Source of the DNA: Oxalobacteraceae bacterium
GTDB lineage: Bacteria > Pseudomonadota > Gammaproteobacteria > Burkholderiales > Burkholderiaceae_D
DNA length: 64,000 nucleotides
Reading direction: 5' to 3'
Assembly (NCBI GenBank): GCA_021768485.1
Contig: JAIZVZ010000009.1
Location: 1 to 64,000, forward strand
The position numbers were made by a program, and so were the translations under genes. Position 1 is the stretch's first letter; every line of letters starts with the position of its first letter. Shown one piece after another: positions 1 through 15,923 of this stretch. Under the pieces are notes generated by a model. That model had not been told where the DNA came from and searched no databases. It saw only the letters and a list, made by a program, of their open reading frames with translations.

Positions 1-13
1 CGACTGACTCAAA

Positions 14-202
14 ATGGATGGCGTTCCAATCGAGGAAGAGACCGCTTGGGGAACGATACTTGCGGATGCGGCCCGTCATATTGCCAAGGCGCGTCATTCA
101 GACAATGTTGAAGATGAACAAATTGCTCTGACGCAGATATGCAATAAAATCAATCTTGAGTTGATGAATCCCACGTCCGAAGTGCATGGTAAATTTGTCT
201 GA
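14..202 (+). CDS. Small DUF5076-like protein, possibly N-terminally truncated
   Basis: This 62-residue frame opens at an ATG with an in-frame stop only seven bases upstream, so it does not continue off the left edge. The run AWGTILADAARHIAKA followed by a Pro-Thr-Ser tail resembles, from memory, the C-terminal half of DUF5076 proteins, which are normally about 90-100 residues. The usual N-terminal part is missing, so it may be a remnant or a short family member. The resemblance is weak and no function is known. Confidence 0.35.
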   Translation: MDGVPIEEETAWGTILADAARHIAKARHSDNVEDEQIALTQICNKINLELMNPTSEVHGKFV

Positions 203-218
203 CTGGACGACATCTCCC

Positions 219-364
219 GGCCCATACTGTGTAAAAATGCAGATCGGGCAACGCCGGCGACACTAACTCCTCCAGAAGGTCCGCTACGGAGTTTTCTCAG
301 GGGCGGTAATTATAAAGAGCCCCTTGGAAACCTCGCGATTTCACTTTTTTACACAGTCTTGGCA
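219..364. repeat. MITE-like element with CTGTGTAAAAA inverted ends
   Basis: The left end (219-240) reads GGCCCATACTGTGTAAAAA and the right end (345-364) reads as its imperfect reverse complement, with TTTTTACACAGT exact. No coding frame lies between. The same end sequence bounds a second element at 1222-1308. This looks like a miniature inverted-repeat element or the residue of a DDE-transposase insertion sequence; the parent family is not identified. Confidence 0.5.
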
Positions 365-405
365 AATAGCAGCCGTTCGGATACAAGTTGCAGCAGAGGA
401 TAAAA

Positions 406-1209
406 ATGATTTTATTTCGGTTGTGCATATTGGTCTGCCTTGCCATTCTTACTTCCAACTCTATGGCAGAAGAAACTATTCGTCAGAAGCAAGAAGTTAC
501 TGTTAATGGTGAGAAGGAAGAGTGGCTTCTAAAATGGACTGGGCCAGTCAAACCAGTTTGCGCTAGCTCGAATTTATCAACGGCGATCACTTGTCCATGC
601 ATTGGATTCGCGTATGGAGAGCAAGGTCAACTGTCCCTTGAACGTTTGCGTTCCGGGACCCGCATTGAAAGCATGAATTTATCCACGCTATTCGGAGATT
701 CAGACAACCCTGCTGACATAGGAAATGCAGCTTTGCGTCTCAGGACCCGAAATGAGAACGACCCGTTCGATGAGATTGATGACCCTGACAGTAGGCGTAA
801 GTTCGATACAGCGGTGCAGTTGCGGCCACTTGCTGATGTCTTAGAAGTCCAAGACTTCGCACGGGATGGGATGAAGTCGACTTTCCTACTTCAGGTAGGT
901 AATTTACCTTGTGGCAAACGGGCCATGATGCTCATTGGTGTGTCCAAGTTGGTGCCCCACCTACACGCATTTACAACAATCGCACATCCTGAGCGCCCTC
1001 TGGTGCTTCAAGCTCATGAATGGATGACGATACTAAAAACAGATGGGCCAGTCACCGTAACGGACTGGACTTGCGGTGACCACGGTAGTGAAAATGAAAT
1101 CGAGAAAATTATCATCGCTCACCAAGGAACTTTTGAGATAAAGTCGAATGCGTATTCATGTCAAAAAGATGGGTCCCGAGGACCTTTGCTTAAAAGTGAA
1201 AAACAGTGA
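406..1209 (+). CDS. Exported protein of unknown function
   Basis: The product is 267 residues starting at ATG 406, chosen because AGAGGA lies just upstream; an in-frame TTG at 388 is less likely. The first 20 residues (ILFRLCILVCLAILTSNSMA) form a signal peptide with an Ala-x-Ala-like cleavage site before EE, so a periplasmic or secreted location is inferred. The mature part has several Cys (CASSNLS, TCPC, LPCG, WTCG, YSCQ) that could pair as disulfides. No family is recognised. The gene is visibly less GC-rich than the genes beyond 7 kb and sits between two matching palindromic elements (219-364 and 1222-1308), so it may be acquired DNA. Confidence 0.6.
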   Translation: MILFRLCILVCLAILTSNSMAEETIRQKQEVTVNGEKEEWLLKWTGPVKPVCASSNLSTAITCPCIGFAYGEQGQLSLERLRSGTRIESMNLSTLFGDSDNPADIGNAALRLRTRNENDPFDEIDDPDSRRKFDTAVQLRPLADVLEVQDFARDGMKSTFLLQVGNLPCGKRAMMLIGVSKLVPHLHAFTTIAHPERPLVLQAHEWMTILKTDGPVTVTDWTCGDHGSENEIEKIIIAHQGTFEIKSNAYSCQKDGSRGPLLKSEKQ

Positions 1210-1221
1210 GCCAGCTGTTAT

Positions 1222-1308
1222 CGGCCCAGGCTGTGTAAAAACACCTCGATCAGCGAGCAATTCAATGTCAAGGCACGACGCGACTCTGTTTTTACACAGT
1301 CTGGGCCG
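1222..1308. repeat. Second MITE-like palindromic element
   Basis: An 87-bp element. Its left 21 bases (1222-1242, CGGCCCAGGCTGTGTAAAAAC) match the reverse complement of its right 21 bases (1288-1308) at 20 of 21 positions. The 45-bp centre is non-coding. The ends are clearly related to those at 219-364. It starts 12 bp after the stop codon of the 406-1209 gene, so it could also act as a strong transcript hairpin. Confidence 0.6.
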
Positions 1309-1471
1309 GATGCCGTCGATCATTAGACGGACGGCGATGTCAGGTCAAGAATGAGCTAGGGCAGATGAAAACTTCTTAATTTGTTATTATTTTGACTCTG
1401 CTGTCAGGAGTTGCCGATCGCACGACGATTTGGATTTAAGGATGCTCCAGCTAATAATTTAGGAACGCATA

Positions 1472-1867
1472 GTGAAATTTTCGCTTTCAGCGGTGGCTTA
1501 TCTGATCGTCCCATTTTTACTTGGCGCTTGCTGTTACTTCGCCCCATGTCACCCCGCAACTTACATCGCAGGAGAGGTGACGGACGCGGTATCACATCGG
1601 CCGATTTCCAATGCAACTGTCCAACTCTATCAGTATAAAGTACGCACGACACTTTCCGGTTGTTTTGCACTCGGTGGTGCTGATGCCCTTCCATTCGAAT
1701 TCGCTGTTTCGGCTCTTGGATACAAACCTATAGTTATTAAGGCGGTCCCTGGCTCATATCGGGCACTGGTAACGCTCGTCCCTGAGGGCAATTCAGGAAA
1801 TAGCAACTCCGAAGCTAGTGAAATTTCCCAAGAGCGATATGCCGAGTTTTCTCGGGCTTGCCCTTAA
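1472..1867 (+). CDS. Small lipoprotein with carboxypeptidase-regulatory-like fold
   Basis: The product is 131 residues. The N-terminus ends in the lipobox LLGAC, giving a lipidated Cys at position 20, so it is predicted to be membrane-anchored in the periplasm. Residues from about 30 (YIAGEVTDAVSHRPISNATVQLY) have the pattern of a CarboxypepD_reg / Cna-B-like beta-sandwich: G-x-V-T-D at the start, then P-I-x-x-A-x-V, and a later LGYKP. Such domains are structural rather than catalytic. The gene stands alone and is followed by an intrinsic terminator. The specific role is unknown. Confidence 0.65.
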   Translation: MKFSLSAVAYLIVPFLLGACCYFAPCHPATYIAGEVTDAVSHRPISNATVQLYQYKVRTTLSGCFALGGADALPFEFAVSALGYKPIVIKAVPGSYRALVTLVPEGNSGNSNSEASEISQERYAEFSRACP

Positions 1868-2208
1868 CGATTCGTCTGAGTCGACGGTACTTCGTGGTTC
1901 GGTACAATTGGCGCGTTTCGAGGAGCCAGAACATCCGCAGCAAAAAGCCCAGCCTTCACCGCCTGGGCTTTTTGCATTCGGGGGACTTCATGCTCTTCAT
2001 TGCGCACCGGGCCTGCTTCAAGGTCGCATTAAGCCAAAAAACGCACGCGGATTTCTGTCTGGTTTTTCCTGGAAGCTACAGAATAGTGTAAATACTGCAA
2101 GCTTTACTTTAAGTCATGTTATATTTCCGATCAGTTACACACGTTTATGTTTGACGGCGTCCAGTCCGTCTTTTACTGATGCACCCGATTTTCAGTAGAG
2201 GAAACATC
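1868..2208. other. Intergenic region before the chemoreceptor gene
   Basis: 341 bp without a supported gene. It holds terminator copy A and then AT-rich sequence (about 2080-2150) that probably carries the promoter of the chemoreceptor gene. No clear sigma-70 or flagellar sigma-28 match could be defined by eye. Confidence 0.4.
1940..1975 (+). terminator. Intrinsic terminator (copy A of a recurring type)
   Basis: GCAAAAAGCCCAG (1940-1952) pairs with CTGGGCTTTTTGC (1963-1975), a 13-bp stem with a T run, placed about 70 bp after the lipoprotein stop. Very similar hairpins recur at 3976-4008 and 5562-5595. Confidence 0.8.
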
Positions 2209-3849
2209 ATGCGTTTGAACACCCCTGTCTCGCAAAACGAGCTCGTCATGGAAGATGGCAAAACCATCGTCTCTTGCACTGATTTAAAAGGCAATATCAC
2301 TTACGCCAACCCTTACTTCATGGAAGTGAGCGGGTTTGCGGAAAACGAATTGATAGGCGCGCCGCAAAACATCGTGCGCCATCCCGAGATGCCGGTCGAG
2401 GCGTTTGCCGACATGTGGCGTACCATCGCCGACGGTGAGCCGTGGACCGGGATGGTCAAAAATCGCTGTAAAAATGGCGACTTTTATTGGGTGCTGGCCA
2501 ATGTCACGCCCGTGATTGAAGACGGCAAGCCGGTTGGCTATTTGTCGGTGCGCACCAAACCCTCGCGTGAGCAAGTGAATCAAGCCGATGCGCTGTATCG
2601 CGAAATCAGGGAGGGCAACCGGCGCCATTTGCGCATCGTGAAGGGGAGCGCCCGATCGAGCAGCATATTTGCCAGTGTTAAATTATTTATTGATGCGCCG
2701 CTGGCAATGCATATTATGTTGGCAACTGCGTTGTGGAGCGCTCTGCTGGCGCTGGGCGCGCTGGGCTTGTTACTGCTCGATACGACGACGCTGCTCAAGA
2801 TGCGGCACTGGCTCGGTGGCGGAGCCCTTGTTTTGCTGCTTGGCATGGTGGCGTTTAATCGCCATCTATATGTGAATGTGGCGTCGCCATTGCGGCGTGC
2901 AATCAATGCCGCCCGCATGCTGGCCGGAGGCGATCTGACGGCGGCGATTGATGTGCCGCGTAACGATGAAATGGGGCAGTTGCTGGCGGCGCTGCGTCAG
3001 ACCAATATCAATTTGCACAGCATTATTGGCGACGTGCGGCGCAACTTCGAAGCGATTTCGACGGCCACCGATGAAATTGCCGACGGCAATATGGATTTGT
3101 CGAACCGGACCGAAGCACAATCGGCCAATTTGCAGCAAACGGCGTCGAGCATGGAACAATTGACGGCGGCCGTGCAGCAAAGTGCGTTAAATGTGGTGAA
3201 TGCCAATAAGCTTGCCGAACGTGCGCGCGAAGTTGCCGCGCAAGGCGGCAATACGGTTTCCCAGGTGGTCGCAACAATGGGGGAGATCAGCTCATCGTCA
3301 AATAAGATCCTGGATATCATCGGCTTGATCGACGGCATTGCATTCCAGACCAATATCCTCGCGCTGAATGCCGCCGTTGAAGCGGCGCGCGCCGGCGAGC
3401 AGGGCCGAGGTTTCGCCGTGGTCGCAGGCGAAGTGCGCACGCTGGCGCAGCGTTCGGCTACCGCCGCCAAGGAAATCAAGGGCTTGATTGATGCTTCGAT
3501 TGATACGGTGAAGGCCGGTACCGAGTTGACCAATAGCGCCGGCGCCATCATGGCGCAGGTGATCGAGTCGGTGGCGCGCGTAACGCAAGTCATGGGTGAA
3601 ATTTCGAGTTCGACGCACGAACAAAGTACCGGTATCGGTCAGGTCAATGAAGCGGTGATCAAGATCGATGGCATCACGCAGCAAAACGCGGCGATGGTCG
3701 AAGAAGCGGCTGCCGCTGCCGGCAACCTCTCGCAGCAATCGCAGTGCGTGGTGCAGGCGATTTCGGTGTTCAAGCTACGACATGCCAATAACGCCGCCCG
3801 GCAGTTAGGGCGTCAAAAAGTGTCGGCGCGTTTGCAATTGCAGGGGTGA
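2209..3849 (+). CDS. Aer-type methyl-accepting chemotaxis protein with PAS domain
   Basis: The product is 546 residues from ATG 2209, which has AGAGGA 7 bp upstream. Residues about 20-115 form a PAS domain with the Aer-like block [14 protein letters not shown] and an IVRHPEMP segment, suggesting a cytoplasmic redox or energy sensor that could bind FAD. Two hydrophobic segments (about 165-190 and 200-220) form a membrane hairpin, followed by HAMP and a long coiled-coil signalling domain with the conserved tip [20 protein letters not shown]. There is no C-terminal NWETF-type tether for CheR. It should signal through CheW/CheA to bias swimming. No other che or fli gene lies in the window. Confidence 0.93.
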
Positions 3850-3975
3850 TGCAGCGGCTCGTCACGTAACCGGCTCGTGCCGTGCACGCGGCATACCAGC
3901 CGCGGCATTTGGGCCGCATGCAGCTTGTGGGGAGCACGAAGCAGGCAGTTGATGCTGGCGGGCCACTCACCGCAG

Positions 3976-4008
3976 CAAAAAGCCCGGCTTTCACGGCCGG
4001 GCTTTTTG
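3976..4008. terminator. Bidirectional intrinsic terminator (copy B)
   Basis: CAAAAAGCCCGGC (3976-3988) pairs with GCCGGGCTTTTTG (3996-4008); A and T runs on both sides allow termination of both strands. It lies between the convergent chemoreceptor (+) and lipoprotein (-) genes. Confidence 0.85.
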
Positions 4009-4053
4009 TTTTGAAGACGGATTTCTATTTAGGAAGATCGGCACAAAAGGCGA

Positions 4054-4572
4054 TTATTGTGGCACTACTGGTTTTGCCGTCACATTGCTTTGAACTTCAT
4101 TTTTTGCCGGTGCGGGAGATGCATTTCCCCCCGGGGCCGCGCCAAGACTGTTGTAGATGTTGTCGATGACTTCATCGACCATTTCTTTCTGTGATTTGCG
4201 GGTGAGCGAGGCATGCAAGGAGTTTCCGGTCGCTAGTGGCGACTCTGTTTTCGGGTCGCGGATAGTGACGGTCAATTCCAGCATATACATGGTGATGTCC
4301 CAGTACCATCTGTCGACGTAGGTGACGAGGGCATCGAACTTGTTCGAGGCTAGTTCGGGTCCCGTTGTGACGGTGACGCCTTTGCTGCGCAATTTGTTGG
4401 CAATGTCCTCATTGACTGCGCTGTTATCAGACGGGAAGTGTCTGACATACATCGTCTTTAGCGTTGAAAGATCGGTTTGAGGATTGACGTAGCTTGTTGC
4501 ATGGTTGGCGCAGCCGGTGGTCAATGAGATGACGACAGCAAAAATTGCGCTCAGTTTCAGCAGTGTCTGCAC
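4054..4572 (-). CDS. Small lipoprotein of unknown function
   Basis: The product is 172 residues, starting at GTG with AAAGGAAA upstream. The signal peptide ends in SLTTGC, giving a lipidated Cys at 21. The mature part alternates short beta-strand-like segments (LKTMYVRHF, KFDALVTYVDRWYWD, YMLELTVTIRD) and ends in an Ala/Pro-rich tail, the general look of small outer-membrane-associated lipoproteins such as DUF4136-type proteins, although that assignment is not made. It is a single-gene unit convergent with the chemoreceptor. Confidence 0.6.
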   Translation of the reverse strand: MQTLLKLSAIFAVVISLTTGCANHATSYVNPQTDLSTLKTMYVRHFPSDNSAVNEDIANKLRSKGVTVTTGPELASNKFDALVTYVDRWYWDITMYMLELTVTIRDPKTESPLATGNSLHASLTRKSQKEMVDEVIDNIYNSLGAAPGGNASPAPAKNEVQSNVTAKPVVPQ

Positions 4573-4800
4573 GATGATTTCCTTTGAATTCAGGACAAAT
4601 GATGCCCGCAGAAAGAGCTAGAGCATCTATAAAGAGGATTAATTAATTTTTAATCAATAAGACAGTAGCACAAATTATCTGTTGGTAACATGTTATAAAC
4701 ACATGTCCTCAGGAAAGGATTGTGTGCAGTTATCTGGTGGCGCCACGTCGGCCCTGGGCCGACTTCGGCGGCCGGGTCCTGGCCACAGGCAGCCGTACTA

Positions 4801-5409
4801 ATGATGAGACTGGATTCAAAATATTCGATGCAGGCAGATGACAAGACTTTGGAGAGCCGTCTCATTCGGATGGTCCGTTCTTCAGTTGAATTGATGGATA
4901 TGCTGGATGTAGCCAGCCGGCTAAAACTGGCATCGTGGTGTATTGGCGCCGGTGCGGTGCGGTCCCTGGTCTGGGACCAGTTACATGGTTTTGCCGTGCC
5001 TTCCAGTGGCGGCGATGTCGATGTGGTGTATTACGACGAGCAGGCCGGCCCGGAGCAGGATGGCGAACTGCTGAACCGTTTGCTGGGATTTAGACCGGCG
5101 GTCCGCTGGGAAGTGACGAATCAAGCTTCGGTTCATCATTGGTTCTTCGAACGGCATTCACAAGTGCTGCCTCCCTTGCATTCTTTAGCGGAGGGAATCG
5201 CTACCTGGCCTGAATACGCCACTTGTGTCGGCGTGAGTTTAGACTCCAGAAAGGCCATCAGAGTTATCGCGCCACATGGTTTGCAGGATTTATTTCAACT
5301 GCGTGTCAGGCATAATCCGACGCGGGCCAGCGCTGCCGTGTTCAATGAGCGCCTGATGTCAAAACAGTTTTCCGCGCGCTGGCCAAAATTGTCTATCATT
5401 CAGAAATAA
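4801..5409 (+). CDS. Nucleotidyltransferase-like protein (DUF925/NTP_transf_6 type)
   Basis: The product is 202 residues if started at ATG 4801; the frame is open upstream to 4720 but the added sequence lacks a ribosome site or conserved character. The segment GAGAVRSLVWDQLHG followed by GDVDVVYYD matches the minimal nucleotidyltransferase signature of the DUF925 family: a G-x-G-x-x-R motif and a D-x-D metal-binding pair. A later WPEYATCVGV and the LQDLFQLRVRHNP region also fit the family. The substrate is unknown; family members are often described as stand-alone nucleotidyltransferases. It is followed by terminator copy C. Confidence 0.75.
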   Translation: MMRLDSKYSMQADDKTLESRLIRMVRSSVELMDMLDVASRLKLASWCIGAGAVRSLVWDQLHGFAVPSSGGDVDVVYYDEQAGPEQDGELLNRLLGFRPAVRWEVTNQASVHHWFFERHSQVLPPLHSLAEGIATWPEYATCVGVSLDSRKAIRVIAPHGLQDLFQLRVRHNPTRASAAVFNERLMSKQFSARWPKLSIIQK

Positions 5410-5849
5410 CTGGCGCATGGTGTTATTCCGTATCCGCTGCCTAAGCAGCGCATAAAAAATGCTGTCCGCTTGGCGGCGAAAGCTGCAATCCATTTCTAGT
5501 GAAAAGTACAATTACCCGTTGCCCGGATTTGTCTGGCGCGCAGCGGGAAAATCAGCAGTATCGAAACGCCCGGCTGTCACCGCCTGGCTTTTTCGCATTT
5601 TGGCACGGGGCTTTACTTTCCCTATGCAAGTCCCATTCCCTGTCCGAGCTTGCCGGCCTTCTTGCTGAATGCGCTTCAAGCTGGCGGATCGACTTTTTCT
5701 ATCGCAATATATAGAGCGGCATTTCCATTGCCGTTAAATAATAGCAACAAACAATTGTTTTTTAGGAAAGTTGGCGGTATGGTTACTCATGAATTCGTGT
5801 CTGACATCTACACGATGAAGCGAAAGCCCGACTCAGGCTTGGCGCGCTC
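5410..5849. other. Intergenic region with a degenerate terminator
   Basis: About 440 bp with no convincing gene. It contains terminator copy C (5562-5595) and an AT-rich patch near 5700-5765 that could hold a promoter. Short open frames here show no ribosome site or recognisable protein. Confidence 0.4.
5562..5595 (+). terminator. Imperfect terminator hairpin (copy C)
   Basis: A stem of CGAAACGCCCGGC against GCCTGGCTTTTTCG with the loop TGTCACC, a mutated relative of copies A and B. It lies 150 bp beyond the nucleotidyltransferase stop. Confidence 0.55.
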
Positions 5850-6080
5850 ATGAATGTGCTGCGCCGTAATCCAGAGCGGGACGTGAGGACGCATGAAAGT
5901 AAAGATATTCTCGACGACAGTCGCGCCCAGGCTGAGTTTTTTTCAAAATTTTTCGACGCAGTGCCGGGCGCTGGCGGCCTGGAGCGTTTTTCGTCCCGAT
6001 TTGGTATGAATACGCTGTCGCTGGTATTTGCTGCCGGTTTCTTAATATCCCCCGCGATGCGTGGCAAGCGCATTTTTTAG
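5850..6080 (+). CDS. Possible small membrane-associated protein
   Basis: A 76-residue frame with codon use like neighbouring genes. It has a charged N-terminal half and a hydrophobic C-terminal part (TLSLVFAAGFLISPAM), ending 23 bp before the next gene. There is no ribosome site at ATG 5850 and no recognised family, so it may be a remnant or not translated. Confidence 0.3.
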   Translation: MNVLRRNPERDVRTHESKDILDDSRAQAEFFSKFFDAVPGAGGLERFSSRFGMNTLSLVFAAGFLISPAMRGKRIF

Positions 6081-6103
6081 TAAAACAAACAGGAGCTGGT
6101 TAT

Positions 6104-6841
6104 ATGAAGTATGTATCGTTTGCTGTGATGACGTGCGTCTTATTTATTTCGGGCTGCGCCCTCGATCGTTACCAGGCCGCGACACCGCATTTCACACGGC
6201 CGGCGGAGACGCCCAAACAGGGCGATGTCATCGTGTTGCTTGAGCCTGTTTTTCCCGGCAAATTATTTTCGGAGATTGTCTGCGATAACAACATCGGCGT
6301 CATGTGGAATCCGGGGGAGGTGCAGCAAATCGGATTTACCCAGCACTACGCGAGTACTTTTTTAAAGAGCGGTCCGCAGATGGCGATGCTGGCGGCCTTG
6401 CCCGCCAATTTGCGTATTGGCATGTCGGCCTCTGGCGGTGTCGAACCGCTCAATATCGATTCACGCATACTGGTGCCATTTGGGCGCTTCATCAAGGATA
6501 ATTCGGTCGAGGCCGTCGCTCCCCATGGCCTGGTTTGCGAGGACGAAGAATGTGCCCGTCGCGCCATGCAGCAACGCCCGGCGGCGCGGCTTGTTTCGGT
6601 CCGCTTCACGAAGTTTCGCGTTGCCGAGCAGAAGCGCAACATGCTGATGCTGGAAGTCGAAGGCGTGGCGACGGTCACCCGTTCCGGGGCGGCGGCGATC
6701 AGTGTTCCGATACACAATATGATAGAGCGCAGCATTACCAGCGAAGGCATGTGGCATAGCGACTTCTTGAAAGCCATGAACAAGATCGCCAATGAAAGCA
6801 GCTCTGCGGTGGCGGCGCAAATTTACTCGGCGGGGATCTAG
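6104..6841 (+). CDS. Lipoprotein of unknown function
   Basis: The product is 245 residues. AGGAG is centred 10 bp before ATG 6104. The signal sequence ends in the lipobox LFISGC (Cys 18), so it is predicted to be an outer- or inner-membrane lipoprotein facing the periplasm. The mature part has a Cys-rich insert (GLVCEDEECARR) and a long amphipathic C-terminal region. No domain is recognised. It stands alone, and its stop codon lies inside a 16-bp tandem duplication (6838-6869). Confidence 0.65.
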   Translation: MKYVSFAVMTCVLFISGCALDRYQAATPHFTRPAETPKQGDVIVLLEPVFPGKLFSEIVCDNNIGVMWNPGEVQQIGFTQHYASTFLKSGPQMAMLAALPANLRIGMSASGGVEPLNIDSRILVPFGRFIKDNSVEAVAPHGLVCEDEECARRAMQQRPAARLVSVRFTKFRVAEQKRNMLMLEVEGVATVTRSGAAAISVPIHNMIERSITSEGMWHSDFLKAMNKIANESSSAVAAQIYSAGI

Positions 6842-6911
6842 ATTTTTATATGTCTAGATTTTTATATGGCGCGAGTCATGGGCGCCCAGACTTGCGCCCA
6901 GGCTTGCGCAG
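6838..6911. repeat. Tandem duplications after the lipoprotein gene
   Basis: CTAGATTTTTATATG occurs twice with a 16-bp period (6838-6869); the first copy includes the TAG stop of the upstream gene. A second array (6882-6911) repeats GCGCCCAG(A/G)CTT with a 12-bp period. Both look like replication-slippage products. Confidence 0.75.
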
Positions 6912-7053
6912 ATTAAGAGCAGATGCGGTCGGCGCCGGGGCCAGTAAGCCGCACTGACAAACCGGCCTGCGCACTGCGCTTGCGCGTTCGATGCCAGTCG
7001 CAGAGCTTAAGATGTCGGGGCGGACTCTGATCTGGCCGGGAGTGCGCGCAGCC

Positions 7054-7467
7054 TCATGCGGAAAATCGCTTTCGCAGCCAGCGGATCAGGCCGCCGATAA
7101 TCGGCAGTTTCTGAAATAATTCTTCGGCGGCGTCCCAATAATCGCGGTGTACAAGAATCAGGCCGGCATCGTCGAAGACGAGATGCGAGCCGCCTGCCAC
7201 CACATATGCTTTTCCTTTGACGGCAAATTCGAACCTCCAGCTGACAAACGCCTGCTGGCCTTGCTCGATGCGTTCGTCGATGACGAAGCGCGGATTTTCT
7301 GTGGTGGCAAACATGTGGGTAAATATCGCGGCGATTGGGGCGATGCCGCGCACCTCATTGAAAGGGTCCTTGAAATGGGCGTCGGCGCGATAGAGCTGTG
7401 CAATTTCGCACAAGCTATCCGGCGTCAGCGTCTGGTACCAGTTCAACAGCTTGTCCAGTGGGCTCAT
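7054..7467 (-). CDS. NTF2/SnoaL-like fold protein
   Basis: The product is 137 residues. The start at 7467 overlaps the SDR stop by four bases (ATGA), which is why it is preferred over an upstream in-frame codon. The sequence (LLNWYQTLTPDSLCEIAQLY, then HFKDPFNEVRG and DYWDAAEEL) is typical of SnoaL-like or nuclear-transport-factor-2 fold proteins, small alpha-beta barrels that bind or isomerise hydrophobic ligands. As the last gene of the FAD-DUF1365-cfa operon it probably acts on, or holds, a lipid-derived product. The exact reaction is unknown. Confidence 0.8.
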   Translation of the reverse strand: MSPLDKLLNWYQTLTPDSLCEIAQLYRADAHFKDPFNEVRGIAPIAAIFTHMFATTENPRFVIDERIEQGQQAFVSWRFEFAVKGKAYVVAGGSHLVFDDAGLILVHRDYWDAAEELFQKLPIIGGLIRWLRKRFSA

Positions 7468-8249
7468 GATGTTTTCAGAAAGCGTGAAAATAAGGCGAAA
7501 CGCCAGCGATACGGCAGCCATTGCAGCAGTTTCATGATACTGGTGAAACGCCGCGGGAAGTGGATTTCAAACTGGCCTTTTTCCATGCCGCGCATGATGG
7601 CCGCGGCCGCTTGCTGCGGCGTTTGCAGGGCCGGCATGAAAAAATGGTTTTTTTCAGTCAGGCCGGTTTTCACGAAGCCCGGGTTGATCAGGTAAACATC
7701 GAGCCCTTTCGGGCGCAAATCGCCATACAGATTTTCGGCCAGGTTGATCAGGCCGGCCTTGCTGGGGCCGTAAGTGCAGGCAAGCGGCAATCCCATGTAG
7801 CCGGCGACACTGGCGACCAGCGCAATGCCGCCGTGCCCGCGCGCCAGCATATCGGGCAGGACCGTCTCCAGCGCCCCGTAGACGCTGCCAAGATTGATGC
7901 GCAGCGTCGCTTCTGCCGCCGCCATGCTCACTTCCCAGATGTGCTCCGGACGGTAATCGGCGGCGCAGAAAACGAGCAGGTCGACAGCTTTTCCGCTGTC
8001 CAGAATATGGCGGTACGCCGGGCCCCAGGCCCGGGCGTCGAGCACATCGAGCGGCAGCACCAGCGCCGCCGGACTGGCGCCGGCCAGCTGATGCAGCTGA
8101 TCGGCGCGGCGTGCGGACAGCACCACCTGCGCACCGGCAGCGAGCATTGCCTGCGCGAGCGCCGCGCCAATGCCGCTCGAGGCGCCGATCAGCCAGATGC
8201 GCCGGCCCTGCCAGTGGCGAAGCGGGGTGTTCATGGCGGCCAGCATCAT
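7464..8249 (-). CDS. Short-chain dehydrogenase/reductase of the lipid operon
   Basis: The product is 261 residues of the classical SDR family. The Rossmann motif GASSGIG is at 22-28, and the catalytic YGPSK (Tyr-x-x-x-Lys) follows the VASVAG serine strand. The extended C-terminus (about 200-261) contains aromatic and basic residues that could hold it at the membrane. An NAD(P)-dependent oxidoreduction of a lipid or aldehyde is inferred. The start overlaps the stop of the DUF3833 gene and its stop overlaps the NTF2-like start, so the three are translationally coupled. Confidence 0.88.
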   Translation of the reverse strand: MMLAAMNTPLRHWQGRRIWLIGASSGIGAALAQAMLAAGAQVVLSARRADQLHQLAGASPAALVLPLDVLDARAWGPAYRHILDSGKAVDLLVFCAADYRPEHIWEVSMAAAEATLRINLGSVYGALETVLPDMLARGHGGIALVASVAGYMGLPLACTYGPSKAGLINLAENLYGDLRPKGLDVYLINPGFVKTGLTEKNHFFMPALQTPQQAAAAIMRGMEKGQFEIHFPRRFTSIMKLLQWLPYRWRFALFSRFLKTS

Positions 8250-8866: not shown

Positions 8867-10078
8867 TTAAGCCTTGTGCAGCAGGAACTGGGCGACATCG
8901 GTTCTTCCCTCGTCAAAGCCGGCTTCGCAATAGGCCAGATACAGGCGCCAGATGCGCATGAAGCGCTCATCGAAGCCTTGCCTGGAAATGGCCTCGCATT
9001 CGCGCTGGCATGCTGCATTCCAGCGCCGCAGCGTTTCGGCATAGTCGTGGCCAAAAAAATACTGGTCGACCGTATGCAATCCCGCTTTCAGGGCTTGAGC
9101 GCAAAAACGCGGGGGGCTGGGCAGCATCCCGCCCGGGAAAATATATTGCTGGATAAAGTCGGTGCTGCTGCGGTAACGCGCGAAATGGCGTTCGGCGATC
9201 GTGATCGATTGCACCAGGGCTTTGCCGCCTGGTTTGAGGTGCCGGGCCAGGGTCTGGAAAAATTGTGGCCAGTAGCGTTCGCCGACGGCCTCAAACATTT
9301 CAATCGACACAATGGCGTCATATTCGCCTTCCAGGTCGCGATAGTCGCACAGGCGCAGATTGGCCAGGTGTCCGAGCTTGTGCGCGGCAATTCTCTGCTG
9401 CGCGATGCTGAGCTGGGAAGGGGAAATCGTCACGCCATCGACGTCGATGCCGAGCGCCGCCGCATGCAGCGCAAAGCCGCCCCAGCCGCAACCGATCTCC
9501 AGCACGCGGTCGCCCGCATGCAGGCCGAGCTGCTCGATGATGCGCTGGTATTTGCGGGTTTGCGCCTGTTGCAGCGATTGCCTGTAATCGCCCGCGAACA
9601 GGGCGCTCGAGTAGGTCCAGCCCGGGTCCAGCCACAGACGATAAAAGTCGTTGCCGATGTCGTAGTGAGCGTGAATGTTGCGACGGCTGCCCTGGCGCGT
9701 GTTGGGGCGCAGCCAGTGGCGTAGCCGGTACCATAGCTTGGCCAGGCGGGCGCCGACAAAAATGCGACCGAGTACCGCTTCATTGCGCAGCGCCAGGCGC
9801 AAGACAGCCGTCAGGTCGTTGGCTTCGATCCATCCCTGCGCATAGCTCTCGGCAAAACCGATGTCGCCGGCACGCAGGATGCGCTCGCAGGCACGCCAGT
9901 CGTTGATTTTCAGCGTCGCAGCGGGCGGCTGGCGTATATCGCCAAACATCAGGTAACTGCCGTCCGGGCCGATCAGCTGCAGATGATCGTGTTGCAGACG
10001 GTCGAGCAGCCTGACAAATAGCATGGCCGCGGCCGGCATCTTGCTGGATGGGGCGGTAAATGCGCGGATCCGACTCAC
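8867..10078 (-). CDS. cfa: Cyclopropane-fatty-acyl-phospholipid synthase family methyltransferase
   Basis: The product is 403 residues, starting at GTG 10078, which overlaps the DUF1365 stop (GTGA) and has AAAGGAGAG upstream. HAHYDIGNDFYRLWLD (about 136-152) and the SAM-binding motif VLEIGCGWGG (192-201) are hallmarks of the Cfa/mycolic acid methyltransferase family; the bicarbonate-site region EMFEAVGERYW follows. It transfers a methyl or methylene group from S-adenosylmethionine to unsaturated acyl chains of membrane phospholipids. Its neighbours (COG2907 oxidoreductase, DUF1365) suggest a specialised methylated or oxidised fatty acid rather than the housekeeping cyclopropane product. Confidence 0.92.
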   Translation of the reverse strand: MSRIRAFTAPSSKMPAAAMLFVRLLDRLQHDHLQLIGPDGSYLMFGDIRQPPAATLKINDWRACERILRAGDIGFAESYAQGWIEANDLTAVLRLALRNEAVLGRIFVGARLAKLWYRLRHWLRPNTRQGSRRNIHAHYDIGNDFYRLWLDPGWTYSSALFAGDYRQSLQQAQTRKYQRIIEQLGLHAGDRVLEIGCGWGGFALHAAALGIDVDGVTISPSQLSIAQQRIAAHKLGHLANLRLCDYRDLEGEYDAIVSIEMFEAVGERYWPQFFQTLARHLKPGGKALVQSITIAERHFARYRSSTDFIQQYIFPGGMLPSPPRFCAQALKAGLHTVDQYFFGHDYAETLRRWNAACQRECEAISRQGFDERFMRIWRLYLAYCEAGFDEGRTDVAQFLLHKA

Positions 10079-10860
10079 AGTGCACTCTCCTTTGACGTGG
10101 TGATGCTTTGAGCCGGTGGCTCCGGTTTGCGGAAAACGGGGACGCGCTTGAGCCACAATCTGGCGGCTTGCCAGAGGATGCGAAAGAAAATGCCGACCGT
10201 TAGCAGCGGCTGGCTGAGGACGGCTGCGGCCAGCGCGCTGGCACGCATGCCGGTGCGCCGGCCGCCGATTGCCGTTTTGATCAGCAGGCCGTGGTCGTCG
10301 TGGTAGTCGATCCTGGCGAATACGCTTGTTGGCATATCGCGAAAGCGGAAGCGGTAAAAGCCGCGCACCGCGCAAAATGGCGACACATGCAGCTGTTTTT
10401 TGCATTCGAGCGTGGCGCCGGCGTCGATTGGCGCATCGTCTTTTTCGCTGAGCAGATAGCGATGGCTTTGCCCGAACGTGTTGTTGACCTCGGCCAGGAC
10501 GGCGCGCAAATTGCCCTGTCTGTCGTAGCAGTACCAGAAACTGACCGGGTTAAATGCATAGCCGAACACGCGCGGGAAGGTTTGCAGCCAGATCTCGCCA
10601 TCGGCCGCAATACCGGCCTGTGCCAGTATGGCGCGCATCCAGGCGGCGAGATCGGAGCCGTCGCGCGGGCCGTAGTCGCGCGTGTAGACGGAAACCGGGC
10701 GCCAGCGGTCGATGCCAAAGCCGGCTATGTTTATCTCATCGAGGCGGGCCAGATTCAGGCGCACGCAAAACACCGGATATACGAAGCGGTTGCGGGCCGG
10801 TCGCAGACGCTCGTGCGTCACCTGGCCGCGTATCAATTGGGCTGCTGCGCTCGGTTTCAC
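10075..10860 (-). CDS. DUF1365 family protein
   Basis: The product is 261 residues with a GTG start three bases after the stop of the FAD oxidoreductase. The pattern GQVTHERLRPARNRFVYPVF at the start, then FGYAFNPVSFWYCYD and LAEVNNTFGQSH, is diagnostic of DUF1365. A hydrophobic stretch near the C-terminus (LTVGIFFRILWQAARLWL) suggests membrane association. The biochemical activity is not established; the family is almost always next to COG2907 and Cfa-like genes and has been linked to light- or singlet-oxygen-induced fatty acid modification in other proteobacteria. Confidence 0.9.
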   Translation of the reverse strand: MKPSAAAQLIRGQVTHERLRPARNRFVYPVFCVRLNLARLDEINIAGFGIDRWRPVSVYTRDYGPRDGSDLAAWMRAILAQAGIAADGEIWLQTFPRVFGYAFNPVSFWYCYDRQGNLRAVLAEVNNTFGQSHRYLLSEKDDAPIDAGATLECKKQLHVSPFCAVRGFYRFRFRDMPTSVFARIDYHDDHGLLIKTAIGGRRTGMRASALAAAVLSQPLLTVGIFFRILWQAARLWLKRVPVFRKPEPPAQSITTSKESAL

Positions 10861-10863
10861 TTG

Positions 10864-12144
10864 TTATACCTTTGCCCAGTTCGGCGCCAGGCCAAAATCG
10901 CCGGCCACGCGCAAGGCCGATTTCAAGCCGTCTTCGTGAAAGCCATAACCGGTCCAGGCGCCGGCAAACCACACGCGGTTTTTTCCCTGAATCGACGGCA
11001 ACGCCTGCTGCGCGGCGATCGCGGCGTGGTCGAATACCGGATGTTCATAATCGAATTGCGCCAGCACCGTGTGCGGAGCCGGCGCAGAAAACGGATTCAG
11101 GGTCAGCAGAACGGCTTGCTTGAAGGGCAAATCCTGTAACTGATTGAGCCAATAGCTGACGCATACCGGGCGCTGCGCGGCGACGGCTGCGCCACCGATA
11201 TAATTCCAGGCCGACCATACCTTGCGCCTTTGCGGCATCTGCCGCAGATCGGTGTGCAGCACGGCGGTATTGGCCTGGTACCGGATGGCGGACAATGCGG
11301 CGCGCTCGGCGTCGCTGGCGTCGGCCAGCAGGGCCAGCGTTTGCGGCGCGTGCGTGGCGAAGATGACGGCATCGAATAGTTCGGTCCCCTGGTCGCTGCT
11401 GAGCATTACCTGGCGCTTCTGGCGTTCGACGCGCCGGACCGGCGTATTGAGCCGGCAGTCGCTCAAGGTCGCGGCGATTTTTCGCACATATTCACGCCCG
11501 CCGCCACGCACGGTCTGCCATTGCGGCCTGTTACTTACTTGCAGCAGGGCGTGATTCAGGCAAAAACGCAAGAAGGTGCTGGCCGGGAACTGCAAAATGT
11601 CGCTGGGCGAACTCGACCATATCGCGGCGGCCATCGGCAGCAGATAGGCGTCGCGGAACATGGGGCCGTAAGATCCGCTTTCGAGCAGCTGGCCGAGGGT
11701 TGCCCCCGAGAGTGTGGCCGCGCGCAGGTTTGCGTGGGCGGCGCGATTGAAGCGCAGGATGTCGCGCAGCATGCGCAGAAAAGAGGGCGAGAACAGGCGC
11801 CGCCGTTGGGCAAAGACGGTGTCGATGCCGGTCCCGGCCCATTCGAGTTCGCCATCGTCGAGCGAGACGCCGAATGACATGTCGCTGGCATAAGCGGGCA
11901 CGCCGAGTTCGGCCAGCAGGGCGATCAAGTTGGGATAAGTGGCATTGTTAAACACCAGAAAGCCGGTGTCGACCGGGTGAACCATGCCTTCGAGCGCGAC
12001 ATCGACGGTATTCGTATGCCCGCCCAGATAGTTGCCGGCTTCAAACACGGTTACATCGTGCCGGCGCGCCAGAAAATAGGCGCTGGCCAGGCCGGAAATT
12101 CCTGCTCCTATCACCGCAATGCGCTGTCGGGTATGACTGATCAT
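10864..12144 (-). CDS. FAD-dependent oxidoreductase (COG2907, amine-oxidase fold)
   Basis: The product is 426 residues. The N-terminal dinucleotide-binding motif VIGAGISG (11-18) is followed by the acidic strand end VFEAGNYLGGHTNTVD, typical of flavin amine-oxidase and desaturase-like proteins. The C-terminal VWFAGAWTGYGFHEDGLKSAL is the second FAD-contact motif and contains the COG2907 signature. It is the first gene of the operon and probably oxidises or desaturates acyl chains that the downstream Cfa-like enzyme methylates. Expression is probably controlled by the divergent TetR protein through the palindrome at 12228-12241. Confidence 0.9.
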   Translation of the reverse strand: MISHTRQRIAVIGAGISGLASAYFLARRHDVTVFEAGNYLGGHTNTVDVALEGMVHPVDTGFLVFNNATYPNLIALLAELGVPAYASDMSFGVSLDDGELEWAGTGIDTVFAQRRRLFSPSFLRMLRDILRFNRAAHANLRAATLSGATLGQLLESGSYGPMFRDAYLLPMAAAIWSSSPSDILQFPASTFLRFCLNHALLQVSNRPQWQTVRGGGREYVRKIAATLSDCRLNTPVRRVERQKRQVMLSSDQGTELFDAVIFATHAPQTLALLADASDAERAALSAIRYQANTAVLHTDLRQMPQRRKVWSAWNYIGGAAVAAQRPVCVSYWLNQLQDLPFKQAVLLTLNPFSAPAPHTVLAQFDYEHPVFDHAAIAAQQALPSIQGKNRVWFAGAWTGYGFHEDGLKSALRVAGDFGLAPNWAKV

Positions 12145-12254: not shown

Positions 12255-12872
12255 ATGAGTATTTTGGGCCAGGTCAGTTTTAAAAAACAGGCATTCAAGC
12301 TGAGGGAAGACGCTATCCTCGACGCCGCCACGGCCATTCTTGGCAGCAAAGGGTTCGATTTGATGACGATGGACGATGTCGCCAACGCGGTCGGCATTTC
12401 CAAACCGAGTCTGTACAAACACTTCAAATCGAAAGAAGCGCTGGTCGGCGAGGTCATGATTCGCCTGATCGAGGGCGCCAACGATTATCTGTCCGGTCTC
12501 GACGCTGGAGATGGCCCGGTAGCGGTCTTGTCGGCCTTGCTGGAATGGGTACTGCGGGTGCGCCTGGGCGGCGGCATGCCTTTTTTGCCGTCAACCAGCG
12601 CCCATGTGCGCGAGATGTTGATGCGCAACATCAAATATGTCGCGCTGGTGCTGATGTTGAACACCAAATTGAAAAAACTGGTGGTGGCGGCGCAAAAGGC
12701 CGGCGAAATCAATCCGGACTTGCCAAGCGACGTCATCTTATACAGCTATTACGCGCGCACCTGTGATCCGGCCGTCGATTATCTGCTGAAATTTGGCAAA
12801 ATGGATCATGACGCCATTGTCGCGCACATGCTGCAAGTTGCCTTTCATGGCTTCAGGTCTGGCGCGAAATAG
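12255..12872 (+). CDS. TetR family transcriptional regulator
   Basis: The product is 205 residues. Residues about 18-64 form the TetR helix-turn-helix (ILDAATAILGSKGFDLMTMDDVA, then VGISKPSLYKHFKSKEAL). The C-terminal ligand domain is not assignable to a known effector. It is divergent from the FAD-DUF1365-cfa operon and sits next to a perfect palindrome, so repression of that operon and of itself is the likely role. An oxidised lipid or a related stress product would be a natural ligand, but that is speculation. Confidence 0.9.
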   Translation: MSILGQVSFKKQAFKLREDAILDAATAILGSKGFDLMTMDDVANAVGISKPSLYKHFKSKEALVGEVMIRLIEGANDYLSGLDAGDGPVAVLSALLEWVLRVRLGGGMPFLPSTSAHVREMLMRNIKYVALVLMLNTKLKKLVVAAQKAGEINPDLPSDVILYSYYARTCDPAVDYLLKFGKMDHDAIVAHMLQVAFHGFRSGAK

Positions 12873-12988
12873 TGAGTGCGGTGCCGATGCCGGCGCGGCG
12901 GGTCTGGCCGCTGTTCGACAGGCCCGAAAAGCCTGATCTGGAGCATCGACAAGCAGGCTGCCGCGCGGCCGCATGCAGGTAGCAGCGC

Positions 12989-14425
12989 TTACTCCGCCCG
13001 CGGCTCCACCTTCACCACCGTCACCGTACAGTTCGCCTCGGCTACCACCTGCGACGACACGCTGCCCAGATAGCGGCGCAGCGTCGAGCTGCCGCGCGCG
13101 CCGACAATGATGTGGTCGACATTGTTGGCGTTGGCGTAGCTGACGATGGCCGCCGCCGGGTCGCTCGCTTCGAGCACGTGAAAGGTGATGCGGTCGGCGC
13201 CGATCTCGAGCGGGCGGGCCCAGTTCTTCAGCGCTACGAGCTGGCGCACGTGGACGTTTTGTCCGTCCTGGATCAGGCTGTCGTCCATGCCGATCCGGTT
13301 GACCTTGCGCACCGTCACGCAGGCCAGGCGCGCGCCCGACTTCGATTGCAGCATGCGCTCGGCCGTTTCGCGCACGCCGCTGGCGAGCTCTTCGCTGCAG
13401 TTCAGGTCGAGCGCGACCATCATGATCGGCGCCTTGCTCAATTGCTCGGCCGCGCTTTGCTTGACCACGCCGTCGATGCCGGCCATCTTGAAGCGGCGCT
13501 TGAGGACGGCGCCCAGGCCATCCTGGCGCAGCTTGCTGGCGCGCGCCGTCAGCGGCAGCTGTTCGTAGTGCTGCAACATGAAGGCCAGATGGGCGGCCGA
13601 TTCGAAGCGGTCGGCCGGCATCACCTCGAGGCAGCGCAGGATGATCTCCTGCAGCCATGGCGGCAGGTCGGCGCGGTGCGCGCGCGGCGGCAGCGGGTCG
13701 CGGTACAGCCGCTTTTTCAGGCCCGAGACGCCGCTCGGCTGGCCGTAGGGCCGCTGGCCGGTGGCCAGGTGGTACATCAATACGCCCAGCGCGAACAGAT
13801 CGCTGCGCGGTTCGTTGCGCACGCCCAGCACCTGCTCCGGCGAAATGTAGGGGCCGGTGCCGAGCGGGATGCGAAATTCTTCGTTGAGCAGGTCGGGCAG
13901 CTTGTCGTGGCGCGACAGGCCATAGTCGATCAGCACGGCGGTGCCGTCGGCGCGCCGCATGATGTTGCTCGGCTTGATGTCGAGGTGGATCACGTGCTGC
14001 CGGTGCAGGTCTTGCAGCGCCTGCGCGATCTGGATGCCGATCTCGACCACTTCCTGCCAGGGCAGCGGCGCCGCGTTGAAGCGCGCCAGCAGCGATTCGC
14101 CCTCGATCTGTTCCATGACGATGTAGGGCTGGGCCTCGAAGTCGCCGGCGCCGAAGTAGTGCGGCACGTGCTTGCCCTTGAGCTTGGGCATGATCATCTG
14201 TTCGACTTCGAAGGCGACGATGGCGGTCGGGTCTTCGCTCGAAAACAGGCGCGGCACCTTCATGATCCGGCGCATCTCGCCGAGTTCGCTGTGGCGCCCG
14301 CGCAGGTCGGTAATGCGCCACAGCGCGGCCATGGCGCCCGTATGCAGTTTTTCTTCGATCCGGTAGCCGTCGACTTCCATGCCGGGCTGCAGGACGCGGT
14401 GGGTGGGGGCGGCGTTCTCGTTCAT
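12989..14425 (-). CDS. Ser/Thr protein kinase fused to a universal stress domain
   Basis: The product is 478 residues; the ATG at 14425 overlaps the phosphoesterase stop (TGATG). Residues about 20-290 are a Hanks-type kinase: Lys 56 (MKVPRL), the catalytic loop HLDIKPSN (147-154), DYG in place of DFG (167-169), and YISPEQ in place of APE. The glycine loop is degenerate (EKLHTGAMAAL). Residues about 325-478 form a UspA-like domain ending in GARGSSTLRRYLGSVSS, which resembles the family's ATP-binding motif but is one residue shorter between the last two glycines. It has no membrane segment, so a cytoplasmic stress-signalling kinase is inferred. Confidence 0.9.
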   Translation of the reverse strand: MNENAAPTHRVLQPGMEVDGYRIEEKLHTGAMAALWRITDLRGRHSELGEMRRIMKVPRLFSSEDPTAIVAFEVEQMIMPKLKGKHVPHYFGAGDFEAQPYIVMEQIEGESLLARFNAAPLPWQEVVEIGIQIAQALQDLHRQHVIHLDIKPSNIMRRADGTAVLIDYGLSRHDKLPDLLNEEFRIPLGTGPYISPEQVLGVRNEPRSDLFALGVLMYHLATGQRPYGQPSGVSGLKKRLYRDPLPPRAHRADLPPWLQEIILRCLEVMPADRFESAAHLAFMLQHYEQLPLTARASKLRQDGLGAVLKRRFKMAGIDGVVKQSAAEQLSKAPIMMVALDLNCSEELASGVRETAERMLQSKSGARLACVTVRKVNRIGMDDSLIQDGQNVHVRQLVALKNWARPLEIGADRITFHVLEASDPAAAIVSYANANNVDHIIVGARGSSTLRRYLGSVSSQVVAEANCTVTVVKVEPRAE

Positions 14426-15168
14426 CAGTATCCGATCAGCAGACGTTCGGCCAGTGCGCCCGGCAAGCCGGCGGCGCGGATTTTTTGGGCGGCGATCTCG
14501 GCCGCGTAGGGGACCCGGAAAAAACGCAATTGCCATGACTGCGTATCGAACAGCGCATACGCGGCGGCCGGATTGCCGTCGCGCGGCTGGCCGACCGCGC
14601 CGGGGATGGCCAGCCAGCGCCGCTGGCGCGACAGGGCAATGGCTTCGTCGGTGCTCGGGTTGAAGACCCCGGTCTTGCCCGTCATCGTCATGTGGTACAG
14701 GGCCGGCGTGTGGACGTGGCCGCAAAAGGTCAGCTGCGCCGGCGTCGCGTACAGGCTGCGCATTGCCTCCAGCGTGCCTTCGATATAGCCCCAGCCGGCC
14801 GGCGACCAGGCGTTGGCGTGTACCAGCAAGATATCGTCGCGTTCGCGCGTGAGCGGCAGGCCGCGCAGGAATTCGCACTGCGCCTGACTCAGCTGCGCGC
14901 GGGTCCAGGCCACCGCGGCGCGCGCGGCCGGCAGCATGTCGGCGCGCTCGGGCTGAAAAGCGGCTTCGTCATGGTTGCCCATCACGACAAAGGCGCCGTT
15001 TGCCGCATAGTTCATGACGGTCTCGACCACCCAGGCCGGGTCGGCGCCGTAGCCGACCAGGTCGCCGAGGAAGGCAAACTGCTCGGCCTGGTGCGCATGT
15101 GCGTGCTCGAGCACGGCCTCGACGGCTTCGCGGTTGGAGTGCAGGTCGGTCAGAATGGCTAGCAGCAT
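14425..15168 (-). CDS. Metallophosphoesterase (YfcE/MJ0936-like)
   Basis: The product is 247 residues with all calcineurin-like metal motifs: TDLHSN (7-12), GDLVGYG, GNHDE, LVHAN and GHVHTP. Enzymes of this group hydrolyse phosphodiesters or phosphoproteins with Mn or Fe. The gene lies directly upstream of, and overlaps, the kinase-USP gene, so the two are translationally coupled; removing phosphate from proteins phosphorylated by that kinase is an attractive inference. The substrate could equally be a cyclic nucleotide or another phosphodiester. Confidence 0.88.
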   Translation of the reverse strand: MLLAILTDLHSNREAVEAVLEHAHAHQAEQFAFLGDLVGYGADPAWVVETVMNYAANGAFVVMGNHDEAAFQPERADMLPAARAAVAWTRAQLSQAQCEFLRGLPLTRERDDILLVHANAWSPAGWGYIEGTLEAMRSLYATPAQLTFCGHVHTPALYHMTMTGKTGVFNPSTDEAIALSRQRRWLAIPGAVGQPRDGNPAAAYALFDTQSWQLRFFRVPYAAEIAAQKIRAAGLPGALAERLLIGY

Positions 15169-15290
15169 GGGCGAATGTCGGTAGTGGTGAAAATGGCGGC
15201 GGTGTGATTATTGAATATATATGCACAATCCTACGTCATCCTTACATCGCAAGAAAGGGAAAACCGGCGCCGCCCCTGGCTGGCGTTTGG

Positions 15291-15923
15291 CTAAGGCCTG
15301 GCTGCCCGGTGTTCGGCCAGCGGCACGAAGCAATCGGTGTCCGTATCGAGGGCGTCGATGGAGCCGCTCTCGATATCGTAGACCCATCCATGCAGTGTCA
15401 GCGATTTTTGCGCCAGCGCCAGCGCGACCGAGGGATGGGTGCGGATATTGTTGAGCTGCGCTTTGACGTTCTCGCGCACCATGCCATCAATCCGGGCTTG
15501 TTCGTCTGTATGGGCTTGCGCTTCATTAATCATGCGGGCCGCATCGCTGTGGCGCAACCATTTTCGCACGGCCGGCATGTGGTCGAGGCAGGCGCAGGTG
15601 GCGACGGCCGTCATGGCGCCGCAATTGGAATGGCCGCAGACCACGATATCGCGCACTTTCAGCGCGGCTACCGCATACTCGACGGTGGCGGACACGCCGC
15701 CCGGCTCCGGCCCGAACGAGGGCACGATATTGCCGGCATTGCGTATGACAAACAGATTGCCGGGATCCGACTGCGTGACGAGTTCGGGCACCATCCTGCT
15801 GTCGGAGCAAGAGATGAATAGCGTCATCGGCGATTGCTTTGATGCCAGTTTCTTGAACAGCTCCCGGCGCTTTGGAAATACCTCGCGCTGGAAGCGCAAA
15901 AAGCCATTGATAATGTCGCGCAT
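15291..15923 (-). CDS. Beta-class carbonic anhydrase
   Basis: The product is 210 residues from ATG 15923 (an in-frame TTG four codons upstream is possible). Zinc ligands Cys 39, His 98 and Cys 101 and the Asp-Arg pair of CSDSR (Asp 41, Arg 43) are all present, with GHSNCGAM and the NAGNIVP segment typical of the CynT/Can group. It interconverts CO2 and bicarbonate in the cytoplasm, supplying bicarbonate for carboxylases. It is separated from the phosphoesterase by about 120 bp and is probably transcribed alone. Confidence 0.94.

Follow-up and report, generated by a model that had tools for sequence, protein, structure and literature searches.

A conserved gene pair encoding a kinase–universal stress protein fusion and a calcineurin-like metallophosphoesterase

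Introduction

What does a protein kinase that carries its own universal stress protein (Usp) domain act upon, and is the phosphoesterase encoded immediately upstream of it a functional partner? The question is raised by a locus in an Oxalobacteraceae bacterium (GenBank assembly GCA_021768485.1), within the stretch of 64,000 nucleotides (contig JAIZVZ010000009.1, positions 1 to 64,000, forward strand) that was analysed as a whole and is referred to here as the window. Fusions of a Hanks-type kinase to a Usp domain, the same kind of protein as that encoded in the window, were listed in 2005 for Mesorhizobium loti, Bradyrhizobium japonicum and Nitrosomonas europaea (PMC1262709); the accessible passages of that report do not mention a phosphoesterase neighbour and merely suggest stress induction. 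NCBI annotation names the fusion ‘bifunctional serine/threonine-protein kinase/universal stress protein’, and the accessible parts of the literature found since 2005 report no function for it. A first-pass annotation of the window had proposed that the kinase and the phosphoesterase act as writer and eraser of phosphorylation, linked to a nucleotide-binding stress sensor, and had questioned whether the kinase is active. We have examined these proposals by comparing the gene pair across genomes and by analysing the conserved residues and predicted structures of its products.

Results

The kinase–Usp fusion gene occupies positions 12989..14425 of the minus strand and encodes 478 residues, an assignment that draws on its open reading frame (ORF), Pfam and an alignment of 126 loci of its family. 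The gene for a calcineurin-like metallophosphoesterase of 247 residues (hereafter MPE) lies upstream at 14425..15168 on the same strand and was assigned from its ORF, Pfam and a predicted structure. The two overlap by one base (ATGA), the MPE stop codon TGA lying at 14425–14427 and the kinase–Usp ATG at 14423–14425. Pfam matches over the pair, to Pkinase (E 3.5e-27), Usp (E 5e-17) and Metallophos_2 (E 3.5e-18), all exceeded curated cut-offs, and no NCBIfam model scored above its cut-off for either protein. The gene models and Pfam therefore bear out the first-pass description of a kinase and a UspA domain joined in one 478-residue protein, and the ATGA overlap is the one described between the stop of the upstream phosphoesterase gene and the kinase start. 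The pair is preceded, across a gap of 122 bases, by a carbonic anhydrase gene on the same strand, and is followed by a convergent TetR-type gene (12255–12872). Elsewhere in the window, positions 1–8000 have a G+C content of 52–54 %, against 58–65 % in the other 4-kb blocks, and are possibly acquired DNA. The minus-strand stretch 8867–12144 includes an FAD amine-oxidase-type gene (10864–12144, by Pfam), beside which lie ORFs that resemble, by eye, those for a DUF1365 protein and for a cyclopropane-fatty-acid synthase; the stretch is perhaps a lipid-modification cluster.

Conservation of the pair was assessed in three overlapping sets; the kinase alignment comprised 126 loci (123 distinct sequences). 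Among 145 genomes of the family, 21 encoded the fusion at a threshold of E 1e-100 or better, and MPE lay directly upstream in all 21, being identified by sequence in 20 and by coordinates in one (G038). Among 398 genomes of the phylum, 23 encoded the fusion at E 1e-70, with MPE adjoining it in 22; the exception, G408, has a kinase that lacks approximately 50 residues at its N terminus and adjoins an ORF judged by eye to be transposase-like. The third set comprised the best 80 matches among named loci, so that rarer forms are under-sampled, and here MPE was upstream in 79 of the 79 loci with room for it. Hosts named in this set included Undibacterium, Noviherbaspirillum, Roseateles, Rubrivivax, Methyloversatilis, Solimonas, Gemmobacter, Bradyrhizobium and one Holophagaceae bin. 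Locus L139 had no upstream room and L038 had no MPE. The only sampled kinase that lacked MPE where upstream room existed was the truncated one (L079, 5202–6704), a kinase–Usp beside a transposase-like ORF and ORFs that appear by eye to be of sugar-nucleotide type. Of four plasmid-borne loci, three had an MPE by sequence, and the fourth (L025) has an annotated metallophosphoesterase across the start of the record, 189 bases off. The survey of adjacency across genomes that had been called for at the outset thus found the pair conserved (21/21, 22/23 and 79/79), and the two genes, far from being rarely adjacent, were near-constant neighbours.

In 94 of 123 loci the spacing of the two genes, with start codons estimated, fell between −30 and +10 bases, and in none of the 123 were they joined as one ORF. 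When the gene families around 51 loci were compared, the kinase was present in 51 and MPE in 49, and the next most widespread candidate among the first 25 families listed occurred in 13; most of the extra ORFs in this comparison were judged to be shadows overlapping the pair. A third fixed member of the unit was considered, and none was general to the 51 loci among those 25 families. Kinase and MPE distances were correlated (Mantel r 0.887, n=120, a value reached in none of 1000 permutations), a correlation that shared ancestry alone would also yield. Taken as sequence comparisons, these observations indicate that the fusion gene and the MPE gene are a conserved unit and not a chance association.

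The association is asymmetric. MPE (E 1e-15) was found in 38 of the 145 family genomes, and in 17 of the 38 it occurred without the fusion; in the 14 of these 17 lone loci that were examined, no kinase–Usp match (E 1e-3) was found around the MPE gene, and the contexts were mixed. A tree was constructed from 50 paired MPEs (chosen from 120), 16 lone MPEs and three outgroup rows, the lone sequences being those of the 14 family loci, a second copy in the genome of the window and L080. Lone MPEs fell in four places, nested among paired sequences, and paired sequences adjoined the outgroup, the branches of which are long; the tree requires four changes, and a single clade of lone MPEs was rejected (p-AU 1.8e-47). 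All eight metal-site residues were kept in 16 of 16 lone proteins. The tree is most simply read as showing an old pair that lost the kinase several times and retained MPE, pairing appearing to be the older state. The main lone clade, of 13, may alternatively represent an old MPE duplicate, because the genome of the window holds both a paired and a lone MPE. Its lone copy (L078; contig 1, 3748–4539, minus strand) encodes 263 residues, is approximately 50 % identical to the paired protein, belongs to the clade of 13 and lies directly behind an ORF of 1239 residues that resembles indolepyruvate ferredoxin oxidoreductase by eye. Whether loss or duplication is assumed, the greater dependence seems to be that of the kinase on MPE.

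Columns conserved among paired MPEs were then compared between clades. The main lone clade had changed 5 of the 51 such columns, three of them being F169, R183 and W185, within residues 169–185 (14614..14664, minus strand). Of seven paired clades, six had changed 0 to 3 of the conserved columns and one, which we take to be Polynucleobacter-like, had changed 4; W185 was also changed in the two-row clade formed by L039 and L041. This comparison of paired and lone proteins gives a hint that residues 169–185 may form a partner surface. No Ser, Thr or Tyr residue conserved specifically in paired MPEs was found, and no phosphosite was indicated.

The Hanks-type (PknB-like) kinase domain spans approximately residues 20–290 (13556..14368, minus strand) and was delimited by Pfam, the predicted structure of the fusion (pLDDT 83.5) and comparison with folds in the PDB. 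PknB chains were the top matches (Z up to 28.0, rmsd 2.8, 257 residues aligned), the fold lists being filled by the kinase half of the model. Residues K56, E73, E75, H147, D149, K151, D167 and G169 were present in 126 of 126 loci, and N154 was kept in 118. The glycine loop is altered to L27-H-T-G-A-M-A-A-L35 (14321..14347, minus strand), with the first glycine replaced by His28 in 120 of the 126 loci; residue 31 is Gly in 119 and Ala in 5, so that Ala31 in the window is the rarer change. In the catalytic loop, HLDIKPSN (residues 147–154; 13964..13987, minus strand), the Arg of HRD is replaced, position 148 being Leu in 114 loci, His in 11 and Phe in one. Residues 167–197 (13835..13927, minus strand) take in the DYG motif and the activation segment as far as the PE of SPE; at the position of DYG, 94 loci have DFG and 32 DYG. 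Both a canonical GxGxxG loop and the HRD Arg are absent from the window kinase, which is a non-RD variant; these are features of RD kinases and not of all Hanks-type members.

The degenerate glycine loop and the DYG motif remarked on in the first-pass annotation are therefore present as described, and the odd features of the kinase, Ala31 excepted, are on this alignment mostly traits of the family. The doubt that had been drawn from them is weakened, since the substitutions are mostly family-wide and spare the catalytic residues. A dead kinase is disfavoured by the conservation of those residues across the family; because they are kept, the kinase is probably active. Residues 173–188 of the activation segment contain no Ser, Thr or Tyr in the window and in 59 other loci (60/126), and contain at least one in 66; residue 190 is Thr or Ser in all 126. 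The scarcity of Ser and Thr in the activation segment and the loss of the HRD Arg suggest that switching would not proceed via the usual loop phosphorylation. An anti-phage role was considered, as PADLOC matched the kinase protein with 34 families, including, among the 25 matches listed, PD-T4-6 models, mad6, a C3a189 kinase and MkoA. The matches listed end by residue 340, MPE had none, and we read them as general kinase similarity.

The Usp domain (residues 334–471; 13013..13426, minus strand) scored 63.2 bits with Pfam against a cut-off of 24. Its glycine motif, G-2X-G-8X-G-S (residues 442–455; 13061..13102, minus strand), is one residue shorter than the ATP-binding motif published for Usp proteins, G-2X-G-9X-G(S/T) (PMC7693658). 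G442 was kept in 125 of 126 loci, G454 in 114, S455 in 112 and D340, the N-terminal Asp expected of ATP-binding members, in 106, and the second glycine of the motif in just 75. The nucleotide-binding sensor postulated in the first-pass annotation thus keeps part of the expected outline and departs from it in the shortened motif and variable second glycine; nucleotide binding is possible, and for these two reasons uncertain.

The calcineurin-like ligand set (DxH, GDxx, GNH(D/E), H and GHxH) is complete in MPE. Residue counts were made over 120 proteins of more than 200 residues from the 123 kinase loci with MPE, and the metal-site residues D8, H10, D36, N65, H66, H117, H151 and H153 were present in 120 of 120. 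They include Asp8 and His10 of the DxH motif (residues 8–10; 15139..15147), the GNHD motif (residues 64–67; 14968..14979), itself conserved in 120 of 120, and His151 and His153 of GHVH (residues 150–153; 14710..14721), all on the minus strand. G193, Q194, R196 and D197 were equally invariant. Protein phosphatases of the PPP family carry GDxxDRG and GNHE. MPE has instead GDLVGYG (residues 35–41; 15046..15066, minus strand) and GNHD, with Tyr40, at the position of the PPP Arg, in 120 of 120 proteins, and classification as a PPP-type Ser/Thr protein phosphatase was rejected because that signature is absent and because the fold and profile comparisons agree on a different relative.

The predicted structure of MPE (pLDDT 95.4) was closest among solved structures to a metallophosphoesterase of Sphaerobacter thermophilus (3rqz; TM 0.88, 35 % identity), which has the GQPRDG stretch in common with it and the entry title of which names no function; two Pyrococcus proteins, also without function in their titles, gave TM 0.77–0.80. 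The closest characterized fold is that of SapH (Spr1479), an asymmetric Ap4A hydrolase/phosphodiesterase (3qfn/3qfm; TM 0.74–0.76, E 1.4e-14 to 3.2e-15), at approximately 20 % identity, a match of fold from which such hydrolysis is predicted at most. In this ranking by E-value, PP1, PP2A and calcineurin came lower (TM ~0.5). A profile search likewise matched 3qfm (1.3e-12) and the dinucleoside tetraphosphatases 2qjc (2.4e-7) and 9t9n (0.002). From these models the substrate is probably a nucleotide or phosphodiester. Related MPEs of groups f39 and f72 (L072, L073, L074, L076 and L077) have approximately 270 extra N-terminal residues, in which RLDEGLSNF and DDD are invariant among the five aligned proteins; the extension is possibly kinase-like by eye. 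An MPE–kinase fusion in other groups was considered, and Pfam, a PDB profile search and hhalign (probability 0.1) gave no support for it.

The gap upstream of MPE in the window (15169..15290, minus strand) contains no sigma-70-like site, none being found by a promoter search from 12800 to 15450, and the FNR/FixK-type box TTGAN6TCAA is absent from the 150 bases upstream of MPE. Of 122 sampled loci, 15 have this box in the 150 bases that precede the estimated MPE start, as against 0.135 loci expected from a Markov model and approximately one from the rate in coding sequence; a looser score (at least 8 of 10) gave 24 of 121 loci, with approximately 5 expected. The box lies at −58 or −59 in eight of eight loci from a single Bradyrhizobium-like genus, assigned from the MPE tree; these loci are related and so do not represent eight independent events. 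Three Rhizobiales bins have it at −61, and an exact box is absent from Bradyrhizobium ivorense (L177). In a hand-made set of alpha-like loci, 12 of 25 had the box, as against 3 of 97 outside it. One of the eight boxed Bradyrhizobium-like loci (L080, 4688–5428) keeps MPE and a box at −58, and no kinase–Usp was found; it appears to have lost the kinase. In the accessible parts of the Bradyrhizobium diazoefficiens FixK2 list (PMC9104804), other Usp genes are present, the sole passage on a kinase concerns acetate/propionate kinase, and neither a metallophosphoesterase nor any of the three box sequences tried was found. The accessible passages of a paper on microoxia (PMC6515984) and of one on Herbaspirillum Fnr (PMC5934665) name Usp proteins and induced Usp genes, respectively, with no match to a metallophosphoesterase or to a serine/threonine kinase in the former, or to a metallophosphoesterase or kinase in the latter; those of a Cupriavidus genome paper (PMC2864759) contain Usp proteins and no kinase fusion.

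Discussion

Our favoured reading, to which we assign a probability of roughly 0.4, is that the kinase–Usp fusion and MPE make up one regulatory module in which MPE is the client, or core enzyme, and the fusion is its detachable regulator. MPE would be a hydrolase of SapH-like fold acting on a nucleotide or phosphodiester, the Usp domain would respond to an adenine nucleotide or to the energy state, besides docking MPE, and the fusion would tune MPE through docking or phosphorylation. We prefer MPE as the controlled enzyme because of the asymmetry of the association and the SapH-like fold. The docking role of the fused Usp domain is proposed by analogy with Sulfolobus acidocaldarius, in which SaUspA binds PP2A, a contact strengthened by ATP, and raises its Vmax from 274 to 583 U/mg, and in which the kinase ArnC phosphorylates SaUspA (PMC7693658). 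As far as the accessible passages show, a Usp protein acts there together with a metal-dependent phosphatase and a protein kinase, as is proposed for the pair in the window; the archaeal system differs in consisting of separate proteins and in its PPP-family phosphatase. Several points count against the client reading. The asymmetry would suit an eraser equally well if an unopposed kinase were harmful; the partner of SaUspA is a PPP enzyme and MPE is not; ATP added nothing further to the stimulation of PP2A in the work as accessible to us (PMC7693658); the shortened Usp motif and its variable second glycine make nucleotide binding uncertain; 66 of the 126 kinases do hold a Ser, Thr or Tyr within residues 173–188; the lone clade of 13 may stem from an old duplication; and MPE has no pair-specific conserved Ser, Thr or Tyr. 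A more specific form, in which the fusion would be a dedicated, removable controller of a small-molecule, possibly Ap4A-type, hydrolase, so that Ser/Thr phosphorylation would be linked with the turnover of nucleotide alarmones and, in some alphaproteobacteria, with control by oxygen, we regard as unlikely to hold as a whole.

The original proposal of a writer and an eraser, in which the kinase phosphorylates itself or its targets and MPE removes the phosphate, unopposed phosphorylation being harmful and MPE thus needed, is in our judgement somewhat unlikely. Its premise of a conserved two-gene unit stands: gene order is strict, spacing is close, and no intact kinase occurred without MPE among the testable loci, while MPE can be alone. 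The fold similarity of MPE to PP1 and calcineurin (TM ~0.5) is also in its favour. It is the eraser role that is weakened, since MPE lacks the GDxxDRG signature, with Tyr40 for Arg throughout, has an Ap4A hydrolase as its nearest characterized fold and, of the 38 family genomes that encode it, is unaccompanied by the fusion in 17; the window kinase, moreover, has few Ser or Thr residues in its activation segment.

Quite unlikely, in our view, is an alarmone sensor coupled to its clearing enzyme, in which the Usp domain binds Ap4A or ATP and gates the kinase, and MPE hydrolyses the same nucleotide, the two proteins needing no contact. The SapH-like fold, the profile matches to 3qfm, 2qjc and 9t9n and the retention of D340, G442 and G454 in the Usp domain all accord with it, but the Usp motif is atypical, identity to SapH is just 20 % and the accessible parts of the literature matches listed report no Ap4A-binding Usp protein. 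The lack of any functional link, with the genes travelling together by chance or in a mobile cassette, would fit the patchy distribution of the fusion (23/398 phylum genomes) and its occurrence on plasmids, but is very improbable given the close spacing, the shared strand and a pair that stays constant as its other neighbours vary by lineage.

Other systems share single features with the pair. In the accessible passages on KdpD, a Usp domain serves as the c-di-AMP-sensing part of a kinase, but KdpD is a histidine kinase (PMC8214093, PMC4686210). In Pseudomonas Stk1–Stp1 and other kinase–PP2C pairs a kinase gene adjoins a phosphatase gene, as far as described in the accessible parts of PMC1262709. 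Phosphatases of the Stk1–Stp1 type have the PP2C fold, whereas that of the window is a calcineurin-type metallophosphoesterase. The fusion itself has been known since 2005; its conserved pairing with MPE was not found in print, no publication on the two-gene unit having been retrieved from the accessible text of open-licence PubMed Central. The near-constant MPE neighbour provides a concrete candidate partner for kinase–Usp proteins, and the pattern of loss suggests which member of the pair depends on the other. If the Ap4A-type link is true, the pair would form a bridge from alarmones to protein phosphorylation. The work on SaUspA and PP2A suggests that control of metallophosphatases by Usp domains may extend beyond one archaeon.
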